From Acidithiobacillus sulfuriphilus (GTDB lineage: Bacteria > Pseudomonadota > Gammaproteobacteria > Acidithiobacillales > Acidithiobacillaceae), in the NCBI RefSeq assembly GCF_003721225.1, contig NZ_RIZI01000195.1, forward strand, positions 1-64,000: DNA of 64,000 nt. Direction: 5' to 3'. Of the stretch, positions 1 to 33,510 are shown piece by piece (the stretch's first letter is position 1; each line of letters opens with the position of its first letter). The position numbers were made by a program, and so were the translations under genes. A model generated the notes under the pieces. That model made no database searches and was not told the origin of the DNA. It saw nothing but the letters and a program-made list of their open reading frames with translations.

Positions 1-975
<975 letters not shown>

Positions 976-3790: not shown

Positions 3791-4333
3791 TAGTGCGACG
3801 ATTCCATGAACTTTTTATGACAGGCATCCTAGCCCGCCCCTCCGGAACGAATCAAGATGCTCCGCAGGCCATGCAAATCAAGGCGTCAATCCAGTATTCA
3901 TTATACACCTATTTTATAACCAGATTTAATAGTTGCCGGAGCATGCTCGCCAGTGTCGCAGGGCGCCGGGGCCCTCATCGCCTTTGGCGCCCGGGAACCG
4001 GCGAACCCGCAAGATCGCCGGCCAGCCCTTGCCCTCCTTCAACCCCATCCATTTATCACCCACCATACGCCGCCACCTCATGACCCTGGTCCTTTTTACC
4101 CCGGCACGGGCCACGGAGACCTTCATCCACCTAGCCAATCTCTTTGGCCGCCGCCCAGTGCTCCTTACCGGCTGGCTGGCCTATGGCGTCATGTTCACCC
4201 TCATGCTGACGAGGCCGCTCCCCGATAAACCTGGATGAGCTATCAGGCCATAAAAAACCATGCCCTTGCACCACGCCCTCGCAATGACTAATGTATCAGT
4301 CCTCTTTTTTTCCACCGAGCAAAGGTTCCGACC
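3791..4333. other. Intergenic region between divergent olsBA and the BFD-like gene
   Basis: About 540 bases hold no convincing gene. A 52-codon frame at 4080-4238 on the plus strand would encode a short peptide with one hydrophobic stretch, but it has no ribosome binding site and no recognisable family. TTGCAC at 4266-4271 and TAATGT at 4289-4294, 17 bases apart, could be the promoter for the gene at 4334. Confidence 0.4.
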
Positions 4334-26151: not shown

Positions 26152-26421
26152 ATGCGAACCACCCAGCAAATGAGCATTACCCTGCCCAACGACATGGCAG
26201 ATGCGGTGAAGGCCAAGGTACGCTCTGGCGAGTACGCCAGCGAGAGTGAAGTGATCCGGGACGGACTGCGGGCGCTGATGGCGCGGGATCGCGCCGTGGA
26301 AAACTGGCTATACAACCAGGTTGGTCCCGCTTATGACGCCTTAAAGGCGGATCCATCCCGCGCCGTCAGTGTTGACCAGGTGCGTGCCCGACTGGCCGCC
26401 GAACACGCCAAGACGCGATGA
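26152..26421 (+). CDS. parD: ParD-family antitoxin (type II)
   Basis: An 89-residue protein starting with a ribbon-helix-helix DNA-binding region: QMSITLPNDMADAVKAKVRSG followed by EYASESEVIRDGLRALMARD, which is characteristic of ParD/CopG antitoxins. The remaining C-terminal half should wrap the toxin. GGGAG lies six bases before the ATG and a 15-bp palindrome lies just upstream, consistent with autorepression by the antitoxin or the complex. Its stop overlaps the parE start by four bases. Confidence 0.9.
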   Translation: MRTTQQMSITLPNDMADAVKAKVRSGEYASESEVIRDGLRALMARDRAVENWLYNQVGPAYDALKADPSRAVSVDQVRARLAAEHAKTR

Positions 26422-26747
26422 GTTATCGCGTCGTATTCAGCCCGGAAGCCCAAGAACAACTTGCTGAGCTTTACCGCTATATCGCTGATACGGCGTCGCC
26501 AGATATTGCTGCGCAATGCACCGAAGCCATCGTGAGCTACTGCGAAAGTCTGTGCACGTTCCCCCTTCGCGGCACCATGCGCGATGACGTGAGGCCCGGT
26601 TTGCGCATCACCAACTACAAGGGGCGGGCAGTGATCGCCTTCGACGTGGACGCCGAGACGGTTTCCATTATCGGTGTCTTCTACGGCGGGCAGGGCTATG
26701 AAACGATCCTGCATGATGACCCGAACGACGACAGATCAGAACACTGA
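26418..26747 (+). CDS. parE: ParE/RelE-superfamily toxin
   Basis: A 109-residue toxin of the ParE type: VVFSPEAQEQLAELYRYIADTASPDIA, FPLRGTMRDDVRPGLRI and VIAFDVDAETVSIIGVFYGG are conserved. ParE toxins poison DNA gyrase, whereas related RelE proteins cut mRNA; PGLR-x-x-NYKGRAVIAF favours ParE. Its start overlaps parD by four bases. The pair lies between integrase remnants, so it was probably carried in by an earlier mobile element and may stabilise the region. Confidence 0.88.
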   Translation: MSYRVVFSPEAQEQLAELYRYIADTASPDIAAQCTEAIVSYCESLCTFPLRGTMRDDVRPGLRITNYKGRAVIAFDVDAETVSIIGVFYGGQGYETILHDDPNDDRSEH

Positions 26748-26923: not shown

Positions 26924-27103
26924 TTACATCAGTGTAGGCGTGCATTTTTCAAGGGCCGGCAACGGTGTCCACGGGCGCCCCTCCACCAGCATCGCCCACT
27001 GTGCTGTGGAGAGTTCCACGGCGCCGGTATCGGCTCTGGGCCAGTGCAGTCGCCCCTGATCCAGACGGCGGTACAAGAGCCAGAAGCCCAGGCCATCCCA
27101 TGC
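26924..27103 (-). pseudogene. IS66 TnpB (Orf2) C-terminal fragment
   Basis: The stretch DGLGFWLLYRRLDQGRLHWP followed by VELSTAQWAMLVEGRPW is the conserved end of IS66-family TnpB accessory proteins. It is joined in frame to an integrase N-terminus, so the present open frame (26924-27397) is a chimera made by a deletion or insertion. No other IS66 part is visible in the window. Confidence 0.68.
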
Positions 27104-27109
27104 CGAGGG

Positions 27110-27343
27110 AATCTCCGGCACTGAAAGGGGAGGCAGAGCCTGCAGGGTTTCGTCCACTTCCACCGCAAAGCGACGGGCCAGGCGCCCCGCCTCCCGGCGG
27201 TTTCCGGTACCCAGGGAAAAACGCAGATAGCCATTAGCCCCAACCTTCAGGGAGCCAGAGGCCAGCACCAGTTCAACACCTTTCAGAGAATCCGGGAGCT
27301 TGCGGGAAAAATGGAAGACCGCTCCCCGGCGAAGAAGATACAT
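27110..27343 (-). pseudogene. Integrase N-terminal fragment (DUF6538 type), remnant 2
   Basis: From the ATG at 27343 (AAGGAACCC precedes it), MYLLRRGAVFHFSRKLPDSL and RFSLGTGNRREAGRLARRFA give the short N-terminal domain seen in DUF6538-type tyrosine recombinases. After about 78 residues it runs into the IS66 fragment. It starts 105 bases from the tRNA-derived direct repeat at 27448 and points away from it, as the intact integrase does at the tRNA. It is therefore the relic of an older element in the same attachment site. Confidence 0.65.
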
Positions 27344-27447
27344 GGGTTCCTTGACCTCACTTTTAGCTACATTCCTAGCCACAGTGTCTAGTCTCAACCC
27401 ATTGAAATATAGTTTCTTTTATGGAAAATCAGAAACTTCTGAATGTA

Positions 27448-27464
27448 TGGCGGAGAGGGTGGGA
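27448..27464 (-). repeat. Distal attachment-site repeat (tRNA-Ser 3' end copy)
   Basis: This is an exact 17-base copy of the tRNA-Ser 3' terminus; similarity to the tRNA stops immediately on both sides. Confidence 0.85.
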
Positions 27465-27902: not shown

Positions 27903-28472
27903 ATGACGACAAACCGCAAAAGGCGCAAGCCAAAAACAGAACCGTTGTCTTTTCTAGGTGTCCTGTTATTTTTGCTTGTGGTTTTTTTACTCACAAAATC
28001 TAGATCATTTTTATCATTGGTTGTCATCTTTGTAATAATGATAATTTCTTTATTCATCGCACGTTGGTACTGGAGATGCCGTCAAAAAAGCCAGATAAGG
28101 GCCGCTTTACTAACTGCTGGAACCACAAACCCGATGCAACTGACACCAGAGGAGTATGAAAGATTCTGTGCTGTACTGCTGGAAAACCATGGATGGCGGA
28201 CGGAACTGACAAAAAAGTCCGGGGATTATGGCGCAGACATCATAGCCAGCAATGGCAATCAACGCATGGTTATTCAATGTAAACAGTGGTCTAAATCTGT
28301 AGGGATTAAAGCTGTCCAGGAGGCGCATTCGGCAGGGGCATACTACAATGCAAGCATTGTTGCAGTAGTTGCAACAACAAAATACACACCAGCCGCCAAA
28401 GATATGGCCAGAAGTATCGGGGTGCGACTATTGAGTCATAATAATTTAGCATCTGGAAATTTCAATGGCTAA
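27903..28472 (+). CDS. Membrane-anchored Mrr-like restriction endonuclease-fold protein
   Basis: From the ATG at 27903, chosen because AAGGTG lies four bases before it, the product has 189 residues. A basic N-terminus is followed by two TM segments at about 16-30 and 36-53. The C-terminal 110 residues are an Mrr_cat domain: MQLTPEEYERFCAVLLENHGW, then SGDYGADIIAS with D112, and VIQCKQW with Q125 and K127, the D...QxK form of the PD-(D/E)xK site. Mrr-type domains cut DNA; Mrr itself targets methylated DNA. Membrane-bound versions are found near phage-defence genes, but the substrate here is unknown. Composition is markedly AT-rich compared with flanking chromosome. It overlaps the CFI-box gene by eight bases. 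Confidence 0.8.
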   Translation: MTTNRKRRKPKTEPLSFLGVLLFLLVVFLLTKSRSFLSLVVIFVIMIISLFIARWYWRCRQKSQIRAALLTAGTTNPMQLTPEEYERFCAVLLENHGWRTELTKKSGDYGADIIASNGNQRMVIQCKQWSKSVGIKAVQEAHSAGAYYNASIVAVVATTKYTPAAKDMARSIGVRLLSHNNLASGNFNG

Positions 28473-28797
28473 AAGAGGAAGAAAGAAGACGTCAAAAACC
28501 ATACTAAATCCTCGAGGAGATCCTCCAAGTGTATTAAAGCGAAAAAGAGGGCGTCGTAATAGAAATTCTCCGTGCTTCATAGCTACTGTCGTTTATGGTG
28601 ACTCATTAGCACCAGAGGTATTTGCATTGCGTAGGTTTCGCGATGAATTCCTTATGCCTTATAGGTTGGGGAAATTTGCAGTCTGGTACTACTATCGTTT
28701 TTCTCCACCTATTGCAAATTGGTTACTATATCATCCACGAATCGCAAGCCTAGTGCGCTACCCACTAAATTTAATAGCTCGGCATTACCAGGATTGA
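28465..28797 (+). CDS. Small CFI-box domain protein
   Basis: A 110-residue protein with a very basic first 35 residues (KRGRKKTSK, KRKRGRRNR) followed by the CFI-box: C37-F-I-A-T-x-V-Y-G, APEVFALRRFRDEFLMP, then YYYRFSPPIANWLLYHPRIA. This domain occurs at the C-termini of many bacterial proteins and has been proposed as a sorting or processing signal with no assigned partner; here it is almost the whole protein. The C-terminal segment is aromatic and hydrophobic enough to lie at a membrane. Its position between a membrane nuclease and a signal-peptidase-like protein is suggestive. I cannot assign a function. Confidence 0.68.
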   Translation: MAKRGRKKTSKTILNPRGDPPSVLKRKRGRRNRNSPCFIATVVYGDSLAPEVFALRRFRDEFLMPYRLGKFAVWYYYRFSPPIANWLLYHPRIASLVRYPLNLIARHYQD

Positions 28798-28822
28798 TAA
28801 TGAAACAGCGAGTAACCGTCGA

Positions 28823-29446
28823 ATGAGTACAAGCGCAACCACAAAAACAATAAACCTCAAATCTGCGGTCATAATGGCAGCAGCATCGCTGCTACTTTTA
28901 CAAGCTAGTTACTCTTACGGCTGGGACCCTGTCTTCGTATCAAAAAAATCTGGGTCCATGTTACCTACAATAAAGCAAGGAAGCATGTTTGTCATAGGTC
29001 ATCCTGGGCGATACTCAAAAATATCTTCTGGCGATATGTTAGCCTTTTTTTATCCAAAAAACATAAAAGAAACATTCATTGATAGGGTTGTTGCTACCCC
29101 AGGAGAGGTTATCAAGATAAATGGTAATACTCTATACATAAATGGAAATTTAATCCCGCAAAAATATATCGGCACCTTTAACTATCGCCCGGAGGGGCAG
29201 GGTGCCGAGGGGATGGTTATCCCCACCAAAGAATATGAACAGGAACTGGGTGGTCATCATTTTCACATTATTGAGTTTGATACCCCGGAAGCGCAGATGA
29301 ACTTCGGGCCATACAAAGTACCAAATGATTGTTATTTTGTTATGGGTGACAATAGAGATAACGTTAATGATAGTAGGTTTTGGGGTTGCGTTCCGAAACA
29401 AAATATTTTAGGAAAAATACATTTATATAAGTTGAAGAAACAGTAA
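28823..29446 (+). CDS. Signal peptidase I-like (S26) protein lacking the catalytic lysine
   Basis: A 207-residue S26-family protein with one N-terminal TM helix (about 14-30). The nucleophile motif SGSMLPT is present (S45), and the C-terminal motif MGDNRDNVNDSRFWG (from residue 174) is complete. In LepB-type enzymes the general base is lysine in a K-R-V-x-x-x-P-G motif. Here the same motif reads IDRVVATPGE, with D87 at the lysine position. The serine/lysine dyad is therefore broken, and the protein may be inactive, use another base, or process special substrates. It follows the CFI-box gene by 25 bases and shares its AT-rich composition. The codon for D87 (GAT) was read directly at 29080-29083. 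Confidence 0.78.
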   Translation: MSTSATTKTINLKSAVIMAAASLLLLQASYSYGWDPVFVSKKSGSMLPTIKQGSMFVIGHPGRYSKISSGDMLAFFYPKNIKETFIDRVVATPGEVIKINGNTLYINGNLIPQKYIGTFNYRPEGQGAEGMVIPTKEYEQELGGHHFHIIEFDTPEAQMNFGPYKVPNDCYFVMGDNRDNVNDSRFWGCVPKQNILGKIHLYKLKKQ

Positions 29447-29624: not shown

Positions 29625-30533
29625 TCAGTCAGGTGGTGCTTCGACCTTGCTCGCGCGCGACTTGATCTGTTCCAGCTCGGCGCCCATACGGCGCACGCGC
29701 TCTGTCAGAGCAGATTCCGTAGCGGAAAGCCGTCTTCCTCTCCAGTTCTCGGGTGGAAACAGCAATGTCCCGACCTGTTCCAAACCATCCCAGCGGCCCC
29801 TTGCGGTCTGATGCGCGCTGTAAAGCTCAATGGCATCCTGCAGAGTGTCCGGCCAGCGTTCTTCATCGGCCACTCTTGACAGCCTTTGCGTCAGCGTGGC
29901 CCCCAGATGGTCTTCGGCAAAGTAGAGGCCGAGGCCGGTAAGATAAGTTTTTTCGCTGATCTGATACGGGCCCTGGCACGCCGCCGCCAGAGACCCCCGG
30001 ATGAACTGCAACAGCGCCTCGAAATCGGCCGTTTTCCGGCTGTGCGCTTCGACCTCGATCCATTGCAGTTCCGCGCCTTCATCATCAACGTGGAGGACCG
30101 CCCCATCCGGCATCTTTCCGGCAATAGTCAGCGCGGGCATGCGCCGGGTCAGGATCTCGAACTCCGTCCAAACCTGTGCGCCCTGTAGCATCTGGGTGAT
30201 AAGAACATTGTTGGTGAGGCTCCGGTGCCGAACGTTTCCGAGGCGCAAATCCAGCCCCGACTTGGCGACGACCTGGGGCCTGAGCCCATTCAGGAAGGCG
30301 GCACCAGAAGGACGCAGCACGTAAGCAGACCCACCGCCATCGATGACCCGGCGTAGCAGGAGGCCCTTTTCCTGGGCTTTGCCGAGCAGCCGGTTGCCAA
30401 GCTTTCCACGGGTGCCTGATGAGCTGCACGGCCACAGCAGTCGGGTGATCTGGTCACGAGTGAGCCAGCCGAAGCGACTGACCGCTTCCAGGCCGTCCAA
30501 CAGGTTTTCTTGATGCTTTTGTAAAGTATCCAT
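29625..30533 (-). CDS. Replication-relaxation family protein
   Basis: A 302-residue protein of the Replic_Relax type found on plasmids and integrative elements. The N-terminus has a winged-helix region, LDGLEAVSRFGWLTRDQITRLLWP, and LLGKAQEKGLLLRRV, then YVLRPSGAAFL. The central part has HRSLTNNVLI, PDGAVLHVDDEGAELQWIEVEAHSRKTADFEALLQF, resembling a nuclease-like core with conserved acidic residues, and the C-terminal 40 residues are charged and helical. These proteins are thought to act in plasmid replication initiation or DNA relaxation, and here it is the likely replication or mobilisation protein of the element. It is convergent with the cargo cassette and faces away from the hairpin-rich region at 30534-31160. 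Confidence 0.78.
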   Translation of the reverse strand: MDTLQKHQENLLDGLEAVSRFGWLTRDQITRLLWPCSSSGTRGKLGNRLLGKAQEKGLLLRRVIDGGGSAYVLRPSGAAFLNGLRPQVVAKSGLDLRLGNVRHRSLTNNVLITQMLQGAQVWTEFEILTRRMPALTIAGKMPDGAVLHVDDEGAELQWIEVEAHSRKTADFEALLQFIRGSLAAACQGPYQISEKTYLTGLGLYFAEDHLGATLTQRLSRVADEERWPDTLQDAIELYSAHQTARGRWDGLEQVGTLLFPPENWRGRRLSATESALTERVRRMGAELEQIKSRASKVEAPPD

Positions 30534-31594: not shown

Positions 31595-33316
31595 TCAGGG
31601 CACACCATGGGGTGTGCCCTTCTGCAAGCGTTTTGCGCGTAGGGGATCAGAGACCGAAAGGCTTCCCGTAAAAGGCAGCGGTCGGGGAATCTCCAGTGGA
31701 AGCGTGATCTTCGCCATCTGCTCGAGCTTCACCTCCAGCGAATAGCCGTCGCCGTAATCGTCTCCCACGTTGCTGGCCTCGCCAAGATTGGAGTGGCCGG
31801 TCAGGGCGTGGTGTAGATCACGGGGGATCAAGGCATTGCGACAGAGGTCCTTAAAGCTATGGCGGAGTGAATGGAAAACCACTGTTTCAGGCATCGCCAA
31901 TTTGCCATGAATAAACCAACTAAACCATTTGCCCAGCAGCTCACTGTCTTCGTTGATCTTTCCCCGGCTACGCAGGAAGGGCCAAAGGGTGATATGTCCA
32001 GCGTTTCGGATGGCCTCGACATAGTCTAGAAAACCTAGTTCAATCAGTTTGGGATGTATCGGCACGTCCCGGATACTGGACTGATTTTTCGCGTGCAGAA
32101 TACGGAAATGGGGCACGGGATCGAGTGATATATGGGATAGGGTGAGTTGGCCGATTTCGTTCAGCCTGGCGCCGGAATACAGACCCACCAGCGGCATCCA
32201 GACGCGGGCATGGTAGCCTCCCCCACCTTTGCCATTGGTGACGCCAAAAAGCCCTTCGGGGGAGAAAATCCGGGTCAATTCCTCCATGGAAAAGGGGCGA
32301 CGCTCCTCCTCAGGGGCGATCCCTTCTTTGGCGGCAAAGCGGCGATAATCAAAGCCGGAGAAGGGGTTCTTGGGGAGCAGTTCATCTTTGACGGCGACGG
32401 AGAAGATCGCCCCTACCAAAGTGCCTTTCTTTTCCAGCGTCTTGGCGCTATTGCCGCGCTGGTCTCGTTCATGGCGCAACCACTCGGTGACCTGGGCGCG
32501 GGTCAGGGTGCTGGGAATAGCTTTGGGGACGAAAGCGGAAAGAGACTGCACCAGTCTTTGAATTTCATGGTCAGTGCGCGGCTTGCGTTCGCAATCCTGC
32601 CGCCAGTGCTTGAGCAAGGCTTCCCAGTTCAGGCCAGTGTCGGCTGGGGCTGGGGTGGGCTCCCAGACGGCGGGTAACGGGATGTTTTCCGTAGGGGAAA
32701 GTGCGGGCTGAACCAGCCGCCCGGCTTGCCGCTGGGCGAGAATGTCGTAGCCTTCCTGCAGGGCGGGCAGGACGTCGAGCACGAGGCGGCATTCTTCTTC
32801 GGGGGATACGGTCAGTTGATATCCCTTGCCCACTAAAAGGCCGTGTACCACCGGGAGAAAGGGTTCAGGTCGTCCACACGCCAGTGCTTTGGCGATCTCG
32901 GCCTGGACCTCGGCGATGTTTTTCTGGAGTTCCTGGTATTCCTCATCATCGATCCCTTCGCGGCGCCAAGTCAGGTCGGCATCCAGACTGGATAGCCACA
33001 GGGCGCGGAGCCCCGCTGCGAGTTCCGGCGTGACCGCGGTGATGGATTGCAGGCGTTGGTCTGGTGGACGGGCAATATAGCGCTGGAAGGCTTCGGCGTA
33101 TTCCATCTGCGGGGTGATCTGCTGCCGCAGAGCGTTGAATTGCTGGTCGGTCTGCAGGGACAAAAAACGGGCCTGGCTGACCGCCTGGCGGTAGTCTCTA
33201 CCGAGTGATTTCTTGATCTCGCGCTTGCCAACGGTCGGGCGCAGGGGTTCGGGGACAACAATGCGGAAGACAAATCCGTGGGGGGTCTTGTAGCAGTTGC
33301 TGGGCAGGGCGGGCAT
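31595..33316 (-). CDS. int: Tyrosine recombinase/integrase of the tRNA-Ser element
   Basis: A 573-residue phage-type integrase. I chose the ATG at 33316 because GAGGAG lies six bases before it; the conserved N-terminal domain (CYKTPHGFVFRIVVPEPLRP, VGKREIKKSLGRDYRQA) follows directly. A long linker and SAM-like core-binding domain come next, then the catalytic domain: R384 in YSGARLNEIG, H482-S-L-R485-H in the box II motif, LTGHS, and a tyrosine in GDDYGDGYSLEV near the C-terminus. It lies about 100 bases from the tRNA-Ser 3' end and reads away from it, as expected when the attachment site is next to int. Two relics of related integrases lie 5-7 kb to the left. Confidence 0.92.
   Translation of the reverse strand: MPALPSNCYKTPHGFVFRIVVPEPLRPTVGKREIKKSLGRDYRQAVSQARFLSLQTDQQFNALRQQITPQMEYAEAFQRYIARPPDQRLQSITAVTPELAAGLRALWLSSLDADLTWRREGIDDEEYQELQKNIAEVQAEIAKALACGRPEPFLPVVHGLLVGKGYQLTVSPEEECRLVLDVLPALQEGYDILAQRQAGRLVQPALSPTENIPLPAVWEPTPAPADTGLNWEALLKHWRQDCERKPRTDHEIQRLVQSLSAFVPKAIPSTLTRAQVTEWLRHERDQRGNSAKTLEKKGTLVGAIFSVAVKDELLPKNPFSGFDYRRFAAKEGIAPEEERRPFSMEELTRIFSPEGLFGVTNGKGGGGYHARVWMPLVGLYSGARLNEIGQLTLSHISLDPVPHFRILHAKNQSSIRDVPIHPKLIELGFLDYVEAIRNAGHITLWPFLRSRGKINEDSELLGKWFSWFIHGKLAMPETVVFHSLRHSFKDLCRNALIPRDLHHALTGHSNLGEASNVGDDYGDGYSLEVKLEQMAKITLPLEIPRPLPFTGSLSVSDPLRAKRLQKGTPHGVP
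31597..31620 (-). terminator. Hairpin at the end of the integrase gene
   Basis: AGGGCACACC and GGTGTGCCCT form a ten-base-pair stem overlapping the last codons of the integrase gene. No T-run follows on either strand. Confidence 0.4.
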
Positions 33317-33419
33317 CGCTTTCTCCTCGTCCACCTTGCTCCGTTTTGTACCGGCTTTTTGTACCACTGAGCCTCCTGAATGCCTTGCTACACTTGGTAT
33401 TCAGTATATTAGTACAAAT

Positions 33420-33510
<91 letters not shown>

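Follow-up and report, generated by a model that had tools for sequence, protein, structure and literature searches.

A recurrent Mrr nuclease and CFI-box protein pair, with a LepB-derived probable pseudoenzyme beside it, on a tRNA-Ser element of Acidithiobacillus sulfuriphilus

What do three small AT-rich genes do as the cargo of a mobile element, and do they belong together? The question is raised by an element of about 6 kb integrated in the tRNA-Ser(GGA) gene of Acidithiobacillus sulfuriphilus (assembly GCF_003721225.1, 2.81 Mb in 194 contigs). It lies in a 64,000-nucleotide stretch of contig NZ_RIZI01000195.1 (positions 1 to 64,000), here called the window. The cargo genes encode a nuclease with an Mrr_cat domain of the PD-(D/E)XK type, a small protein with a CFI-box domain and a protein of the S26 signal peptidase family. 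A preliminary description took the three for a tightly packed AT-rich set, suggestive of defence or of competition between elements, in which the peptidase could process the CFI-box protein. The Mrr nuclease and the CFI-box protein are a recurrent pair. The cargo as a whole is tentatively read as this conserved pair plus a swappable gene for an exported product, which in the window is a derivative of the signal peptidase LepB. A defence or competition role for the module is possible.

The packing and composition of the cargo are as first described. The GC contents of the Mrr, CFI and S26 genes are 0.43, 0.42 and 0.39, respectively, against 0.615 for the whole window; that of the element's integrase gene is 0.585. 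All three genes are on the + strand. The last 8 bases of the Mrr gene overlap the beginning of the CFI gene, and a gap of 25 bases separates the CFI gene from the S26 gene. A tyrosine integrase and an attachment repeat copied from tRNA-Ser(GGA) mark the element as tRNA-borne (Table 1).

The neighbourhood is conserved for the pair and not for the trio. Among the 29 genomes of the family that were searched, three have the small CFI protein, and in all three a transmembrane (TM) Mrr gene lies directly upstream of it; two of these are identified by identical genes as Acidithiobacillus montserratensis (L005) and an Acidithiobacillus sp. (L004). The Mrr profile is matched in nine family genomes, several of them only by a domain in a longer open reading frame (ORF). 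The S26 protein of the window type, called pseudo-S26 below, occurs in one, the window's own. No other locus searched has Mrr, CFI and S26 genes together, and no S26 gene was found near Mrr homologues in the best 80 of 439 relatives in genome contigs or in 22 viral loci. The trio as a conserved system is therefore rejected. Three further pairs of protein matches share the same longest-contig figures (5781, 1958 and 27239), which suggests three more Mrr-CFI loci.

The gene that follows the CFI gene differs at each locus. It encodes the pseudo-LepB in the window, an exported DUF4850 protein in L005 and a lipoprotein-like ORF in L004, so that by eye the product of this third slot is exported or lipoprotein-like in all three. 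In L004 the opening ~45 bases of the CFI gene (L004:3566-3610) recur almost unchanged where the next ORF begins (4046-4090), a sign of recombination in the variable slot. The L004 pair is also preceded by a gene for a TOTE-type primase-helicase (L004:258-2687; PF22548, E 4e-100).

The window's S26 protein belongs to the family to which it had been assigned, with 112.6 bits to TIGR02227 against a cut-off of 47, but a plausible active peptidase it is not. The lysine that acts as general base is replaced by Asp87, and when the protein is aligned with signal peptidases of solved structure, this Asp again falls at the Lys position. This lysine is absent in all seven members of the pseudo-S26 group (Asp in six, Gly in one) and present in 29 of 29 host LepB proteins, one per family genome, and in 11 of 11 outgroup rows. 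The nucleophile, Ser45, is kept in the window protein. The site is Ser in only two of the seven, the window's included, and Ala or Asn in the other five, against Ser in 29 of 29 host LepB proteins and 10 of 11 outgroup rows. The residues at these two sites make it almost certain that the protein is catalytically dead. The N-terminal anchor region typical of LepB is absent in the group. Short hydrophobic leaders replace it, several of which end, by eye, in ALA, AFA or similar (for example ..YALA and ..SAFA). From the leader, judged by eye and by hydropathy, the protein is predicted to be exported.

The pseudo-S26 group and P0043, a metagenome protein, form a single clade (support 100/98) inside the LepB of the family, with weaker inner forks (84/96 and 93/78) and a warning of long branches from the treeing tool. 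The LepB relatives of the window protein carry Acidithiobacillus names, and no relative of pseudo-S26 was found in viral contigs. Likeness to LepB (MEROPS S26A) is thus one of descent within Acidithiobacillaceae LepB with domain II kept, whereas the general base, in most members the nucleophile, and the TM anchors are gone. In P0043 the S26 domain has Gly at the Lys site and is fused to a tRNA_anti-like domain of the OB-fold. Two other metagenome proteins, P0027 and P0040, are C-terminal halves of pseudo-S26, 80% and 95% identical to the window's, with a foreign N-terminus joined at the same point, possibly, by eye, the end of an insertion sequence.

The two main parts of the S26 protein have evolved in opposite ways. 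In the catalytic region the group is 37% identical to LepB, where LepB proteins are 90% identical to one another and 56% to the outgroup. In domain II the identity of the group to LepB is 70%, against 83% within LepB and only 27% between LepB and the outgroup. A contrast of this size was reached by 0 of 20000 column permutations. Nonsynonymous divergence (dN) between the window protein and the LepB of another genus, L088, is 0.06 in domain II, where synonymous sites are saturated, and 0.75 in the catalytic region; against the LepB of its own host (L002) the values are 0.17 and 0.76. Between L088 and L002 themselves they are 0.13 and 0.09. Because synonymous sites are saturated, the likeness of domain II reflects selection and not recent gene conversion. 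A recent copy of domain II from a host lepB was also considered; with synonymous changes at or near saturation, any such copying was not recent. Purifying selection on the domain II surface is strong. With domain II under selection while the catalytic part drifts, a role as an enzyme is unlikely, and the protein is likely to act by way of its domain II surface. The protein probably works as a mimic, since its catalytic machinery is lost and one surface domain is kept. This is the reverse of what is expected of an enzyme, and an exported LepB derivative that keeps its non-catalytic domain is an unusual pseudoenzyme.

The first member of the pair has the Mrr_cat domain and the PD-(D/E)XK residues that had been assigned to it, which place it in the Mrr family. 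D112, Q125 and K127 are invariant across 28 aligned sequences, the window's among them. The two TM segments ascribed to it are less uniform. The N-terminal sequence can be read as having two hydrophobic stretches, and a simple hydropathy scan scores both in five of six relatives and only the second in the window protein. No further Pfam domain above cut-off was found beyond the Mrr/REase group, and the Mrr-TM profile has no sequence match among solved structures (E up to 0.01). The nuclease resembles the Mrr family, the type IV restriction nucleases and the Mrr domain of ZorD in having Mrr_cat with D..QxK. It differs from them in being small, TM-anchored and accompanied by a CFI-box partner gene.

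The second member had been described as nearly all CFI-box, which is somewhat strong. The CFI box is C-terminal (residues 37-101 of 110), and residues 1-36 form a basic tail with the consensus MAKRGRKKT...NPRGES in 10 aligned sequences that include the window's. The net charge of the protein is +17. Hydropathy gives neither a leader nor a TM segment for the window protein. The CFI profile has no sequence match among solved structures (E up to 1), and no relative of the small CFI protein was found in viral contigs. The idea that CFI boxes are processing or sorting signals found no backing: the literature searches returned no paper containing the term CFI-box or CFIATA, the window protein lacks a leader and any TM segment, and nucleases adjoin the small CFI proteins of mobile elements. 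Most likely the CFI box here marks a nuclease partner, and that the window's CFI protein is such a partner is rather probable.

The association of CFI boxes with nucleases is seen most clearly on plasmids. The sample consists of 21 plasmid loci from CFI matches, picked for variety and not at random from lists of 37, 43 and 78 records, with 22 Xanthomonas records represented once. In 16 of the 21 the CFI protein has a Cas4-like N-terminus (Cas4N-CFI), and in all 16 a gene for a TM-anchored PD-(D/E)XK protein follows on the same strand as the next (12) or next-but-one (4) gene. A nuclease profile seeded by five of these 16 nucleases matches, without iteration, 10 of the 11 held-out loci (E 7e-57 to 0.0048), and its best stray match has E 0.068 in 7305 ORFs. 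The remaining nuclease, L274, matches only after profile iteration; both the record and Pfam annotate it as PD-(D/E)XK.

Together these genes look like the two halves of a Cas4 protein. When 10 plasmid-type nuclease genes were scanned, eight matched PDDEXK_1 or Cas_Cas4, some under the curated cut-off. These matches miss the N-terminal part, their first matched profile positions being 86-121 (of 247) or 29-69 (of 160). On the side of the CFI protein, Pfam gave two weak matches to the early nuclease part among 11 Cas4N-CFI proteins (Exo5 E 0.014, Dna2 E 0.038) and none for the rest, and PHROGs gave one match among three (exonuclease, E 7e-5). By eye, all 17 Cas4N-CFI rows have a Cys and a GxxxH before the CFI box, which we take to be Cas4-type motifs. 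As the profile matches are few and weak, the Cas4-like reading of the N-terminus rests mainly on these motifs. Three C-terminal cysteines are present, by eye, in 15 of the 16 plasmid nuclease partners; the exception is L268, where the gene ends early beside IS21. Thus the Cas4N-CFI protein and its TM PD-(D/E)XK partner form an apparent split Cas4, found mainly on plasmids.

Cas4 proteins share four conserved cysteines, and one clade was tied to Burkholderiales conjugative plasmids in 2017 (PMC5704561); the word "split" is absent from that paper. The plasmid pairs resemble Cas4 and the Cas4 of mobile genetic elements in the Cys and GxxxH of the CFI protein and the D-(E/D)xK and C-terminal cysteines of the partner. 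They differ in being split over two genes and in having a TM anchor and a CFI box. A sharp prediction follows for them, that the active site and an iron-sulfur (Fe-S) cluster are shared between two proteins, with one Cys from the CFI protein and three from the TM protein. The window pair, unlike Cas4, uses an Mrr nuclease. Its CFI protein has neither the Cas4-type Cys nor the GxxxH and its partner is Mrr, so the features of the plasmid pairs are not found in it. A likeness between the basic tail of the Acidithiobacillus CFI proteins and the Cas4 N-terminus, seen by eye in "RGE..", is unsupported, since hhalign aligns the CFI part only.

A third arrangement occurs on the Haloquadratum walsbyi plasmid PL47 (L233:3224-5005), where an Mrr-WYL-CFI fusion is followed by an Mrr protein with a C-terminal hydrophobic segment. 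The link of CFI proteins to nucleases is strong for the small plasmid Cas4N-CFI proteins and present for the Mrr pairs of Acidithiobacillus and Haloquadratum, and it is not universal. For the CFI box, a curated domain for which no paper was found, this gives a functional lead, that of a partner of membrane PD-(D/E)XK nucleases. Two side observations concern the plasmid families. Plasmid records hit by one tblastn search with the TM PD-(D/E)XK family numbered 1086, for the most part with about half of the query aligned. In addition, a gene for an S49 or M48 peptidase lies just upstream of seven of the 16 plasmid pairs (Table 1).

In the favoured reading, two TM helices would keep the Mrr nuclease on the cytoplasmic side of the inner membrane. 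The basic CFI protein, presumably cytosolic, would dock to it by the CFI box and help it on DNA. The pair would then attack or process DNA at the membrane, as in defence against, or exclusion of, incoming DNA; this role is assigned to it only tentatively. The exported third product would act on something in the envelope, and that of the window would do so as a mimic of LepB. The dead S26 protein would serve as a soluble mimic or decoy by binding whatever partner LepB domain II has. That the soluble domain II diverts an agent that uses LepB is the weakest step, and a LepB decoy is on balance unlikely. If it were true, mobile elements and their rivals would be in an arms race over the surface of an essential secretion enzyme.

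A precedent for such use exists. Import of colicin D uses LepB non-catalytically (PMC4049620 and PMC4026351). The link to the window protein is one of analogy only; a toxin that uses LepB in this way implies that the LepB surface can be worth mimicking. We know of no bacteriocin or phage that uses LepB in Acidithiobacillus. A broader scheme, doubtful as a whole, would join all these loci. In it the CFI box would be a docking module of membrane PD-(D/E)XK nucleases of mobile elements, which on conjugative plasmids carries the lacking N-terminus of a Cas4 nuclease and lets two proteins share an active site and an Fe-S cluster, in Acidithiobacillus serves a TM-Mrr nuclease and on a haloarchaeal plasmid is fused to Mrr. 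The window's secreted decoy, derived from a host-type essential LepB, would shield element-bearing cells from an agent that exploits LepB domain II.

A number of observations weigh against parts of this reading. In a sample of 369 genomes of the class, where first-look candidates were scored in part and counts are lower bounds, the CFI box is present in at least 38 and Mrr in at least 45, both together in four (G000, G270, G331 and G388), and the two are adjacent only in the window's own genome. Starting from Mrr, a CFI gene is near two of the best 80 of 439 genome relatives and none of the 22 viral loci. The CFI box is also the C-terminal domain of many long chromosomal ORFs and of CSD and TPR proteins. 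Outside the small CFI proteins, the closest relatives of the window protein are of the CSD type (55-59% identity over 65-71% of the query), and neither of the two CSD-CFI plasmid loci examined has a nuclease of the two profiles used; in all, four of the 21 plasmid loci lack one (CSD-CFI twice, TPR-CFI and Aneurinibacillus). Three TM nucleases taken from the nuclease side (L234, L235 and L236) match the nuclease profile and have neither a CFI neighbour nor the three-Cys cluster; their plasmids are two MOBH, one of them typed IncC, and one untyped from Comamonas. No Cas4-like N-terminus is present in the CFI proteins of Acidithiobacillus, and a profile comparison aligns their CFI part alone, so the plasmid logic can be carried over to the Mrr pair by analogy only. 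As for the S26 protein, its box E region, intermediate between the catalytic region and domain II, is 56% identical to LepB, no closer than that of the outgroup (59%; 88% within LepB). Its domain II is less near the LepB of its own host (45/61) than those of other genera (up to 58/65, L088), which makes another lineage the probable donor.

Is the S26 gene part of the module at all? The Mrr-CFI pair may be the only unit and the S26 gene an unrelated neighbour by chance, an alternative of real weight though not a probable one. The third gene differs at all three loci with context, and the scarcity of pseudo-S26 in the family and the lack of S26 genes near the Mrr homologues examined fit this. 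The spacing of 25 bases, the common strand and the similar base composition speak against it, and an exported or lipoprotein-like product in the slot at all three loci may not be chance. The partnership first proposed, in which the CFI protein is the substrate that a working S26 peptidase processes or sorts, has the adjacency, the family match and the Ser45 of the window copy in its favour. It is nevertheless very improbable, with the dyad Lys changed to Asp in the window and missing throughout the group, the Ser missing in most members, an export-type leader on the S26 protein and none on the CFI protein, and no S26 gene at the other two Mrr-CFI loci.

If the S26 protein is dead, it could still act through its cleft, as a chaperone or trap that binds signal peptides or a secreted substrate and holds or titrates it. 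SipA of Streptococcus pyogenes is a dead S26 protein, with Asp and Gly at the dyad and the peptide cleft kept; it retains its TM anchor and works with sortase pili (PMC4049620), an example of an S26 protein that functions with no catalysis. A sequence search gives a weak match of the window protein to SipA (4n31, E 5.6e-6), and like the streptococcal pilus pseudo-signal peptidases SipA/LepA (PDB 4N31, 4K8W) the group has a dead S26 fold, with Asp or Gly at the Lys site. In contrast to SipA, the anchor is lost, and the region that bears the cleft is the part most diverged from LepB while domain II is kept. Moreover, no pilus gene, pilin or sortase was matched among the larger ORFs of the element, to which the scan was confined. 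A SipA-like role is accordingly rather unlikely. The pair, for its part, might serve the maintenance or transfer of the element itself, for example DNA processing at excision, and not defence. Plasmid CFI-nuclease pairs are often near mobI, traG, parM or ssb, genes of conjugation or maintenance, which favours this view. Yet in L004 and L005 Mrr-CFI is seen without the integrase/Replic_Relax backbone in the stretches examined, and relatives carry this backbone at their tRNA-Ser genes; a maintenance role is unlikely, if far from negligible.

No named system with this gene set was found, in agreement with the preliminary description. In PADLOC 2.0 the window Mrr protein gives domain-level matches only (best ZorD, residues 90-194), and the CFI and S26 proteins give none. 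The literature searches, on which the claim of novelty depends, returned no such system; searches for an inactive LepB homologue and for a membrane Mrr gave nothing specific beyond SipA. A paper on the flexible genome of A. caldus lists restriction systems on islands (PMC3826726), and the term "signal peptidase" is absent from its main text.

Table 1. Positions of the cargo, the element and its attachment sites in the window, and loci of the plasmid-type pairs
Feature	Position or locus	Strand	Evidence or remark
Membrane-anchored Mrr_cat (PD-(D/E)XK) nuclease, 189 amino acids	27903-28472	+	PF04471 E 5e-26; frame open from 27870
CFI-box protein, 110 amino acids, proposed nuclease partner	28465-28797	+	NF041770 E 5.4e-22, 77.4 bits (cut-off 40)
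LepB-derived S26 protein, 207 amino acids, predicted exported, almost certainly catalytically dead	28823-29446	+	Peptidase_S26 PF10502 E 5.7e-32
Parts of the S26 protein (residues)	leader ~1-33; catalytic region 36-98; domain II 99-163; box E to end 164-207		catalytic region decayed; domain II conserved
Replic_Relax-like protein, element backbone	29625-30533	-	PF13814 E 0.008, under Pfam cut-off
Tyrosine integrase	31595-33367	-	DUF6538 + Phage_integrase; adjoins tRNA gene
tRNA-Ser(GGA), integration site	33420-33510	-	proximal attachment repeat at its 3' end (33420-33436)
Distal attachment repeat, 17 bp	27448-27464		exact copy of the tRNA-Ser 3' end (33420-33436)
Cas4N-CFI with TM PD-(D/E)XK	L226, L227, L228, L229, L230, L232, L268-L277; L239		plasmids; L239 in genome G373
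S49 peptidase upstream of plasmid pair	L226, L270, L277
M48 peptidase upstream of plasmid pair	L230, L268, L269, L276

The boundaries of the element were checked against chance. In 10 of 100 shuffles the 17-mer had two or more matches at up to three mismatches; the real copies are both exact, and one is the end of the tRNA. Of the 11 relatives' loci examined, three have an integrase homologue close to a matching tRNA-Ser sequence, with identities of 54% over 135 amino acids (L218), 86% over 446 (L220) and 75% over 394 (L224), and on these grounds tRNA-Ser is an integration hotspot. Homologues of the Replic_Relax-like protein are near the matching sequence in L218 and L224. No integrase was found in the stretch examined for the other eight. 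The PilZ gene, a neighbour of the tRNA in the window, is missing from L220, whose tRNA-Ser may therefore be another copy of the tRNA.

Just beyond the element are genes for a ParD-like antitoxin and a ParE-like toxin (26152-26747). Beside them is a truncated second integrase frame (26924-27397, DUF6538) with an end like IS66 TnpB. An earlier element that sat at this tRNA probably left the ParD/ParE-like genes and the truncated integrase behind.

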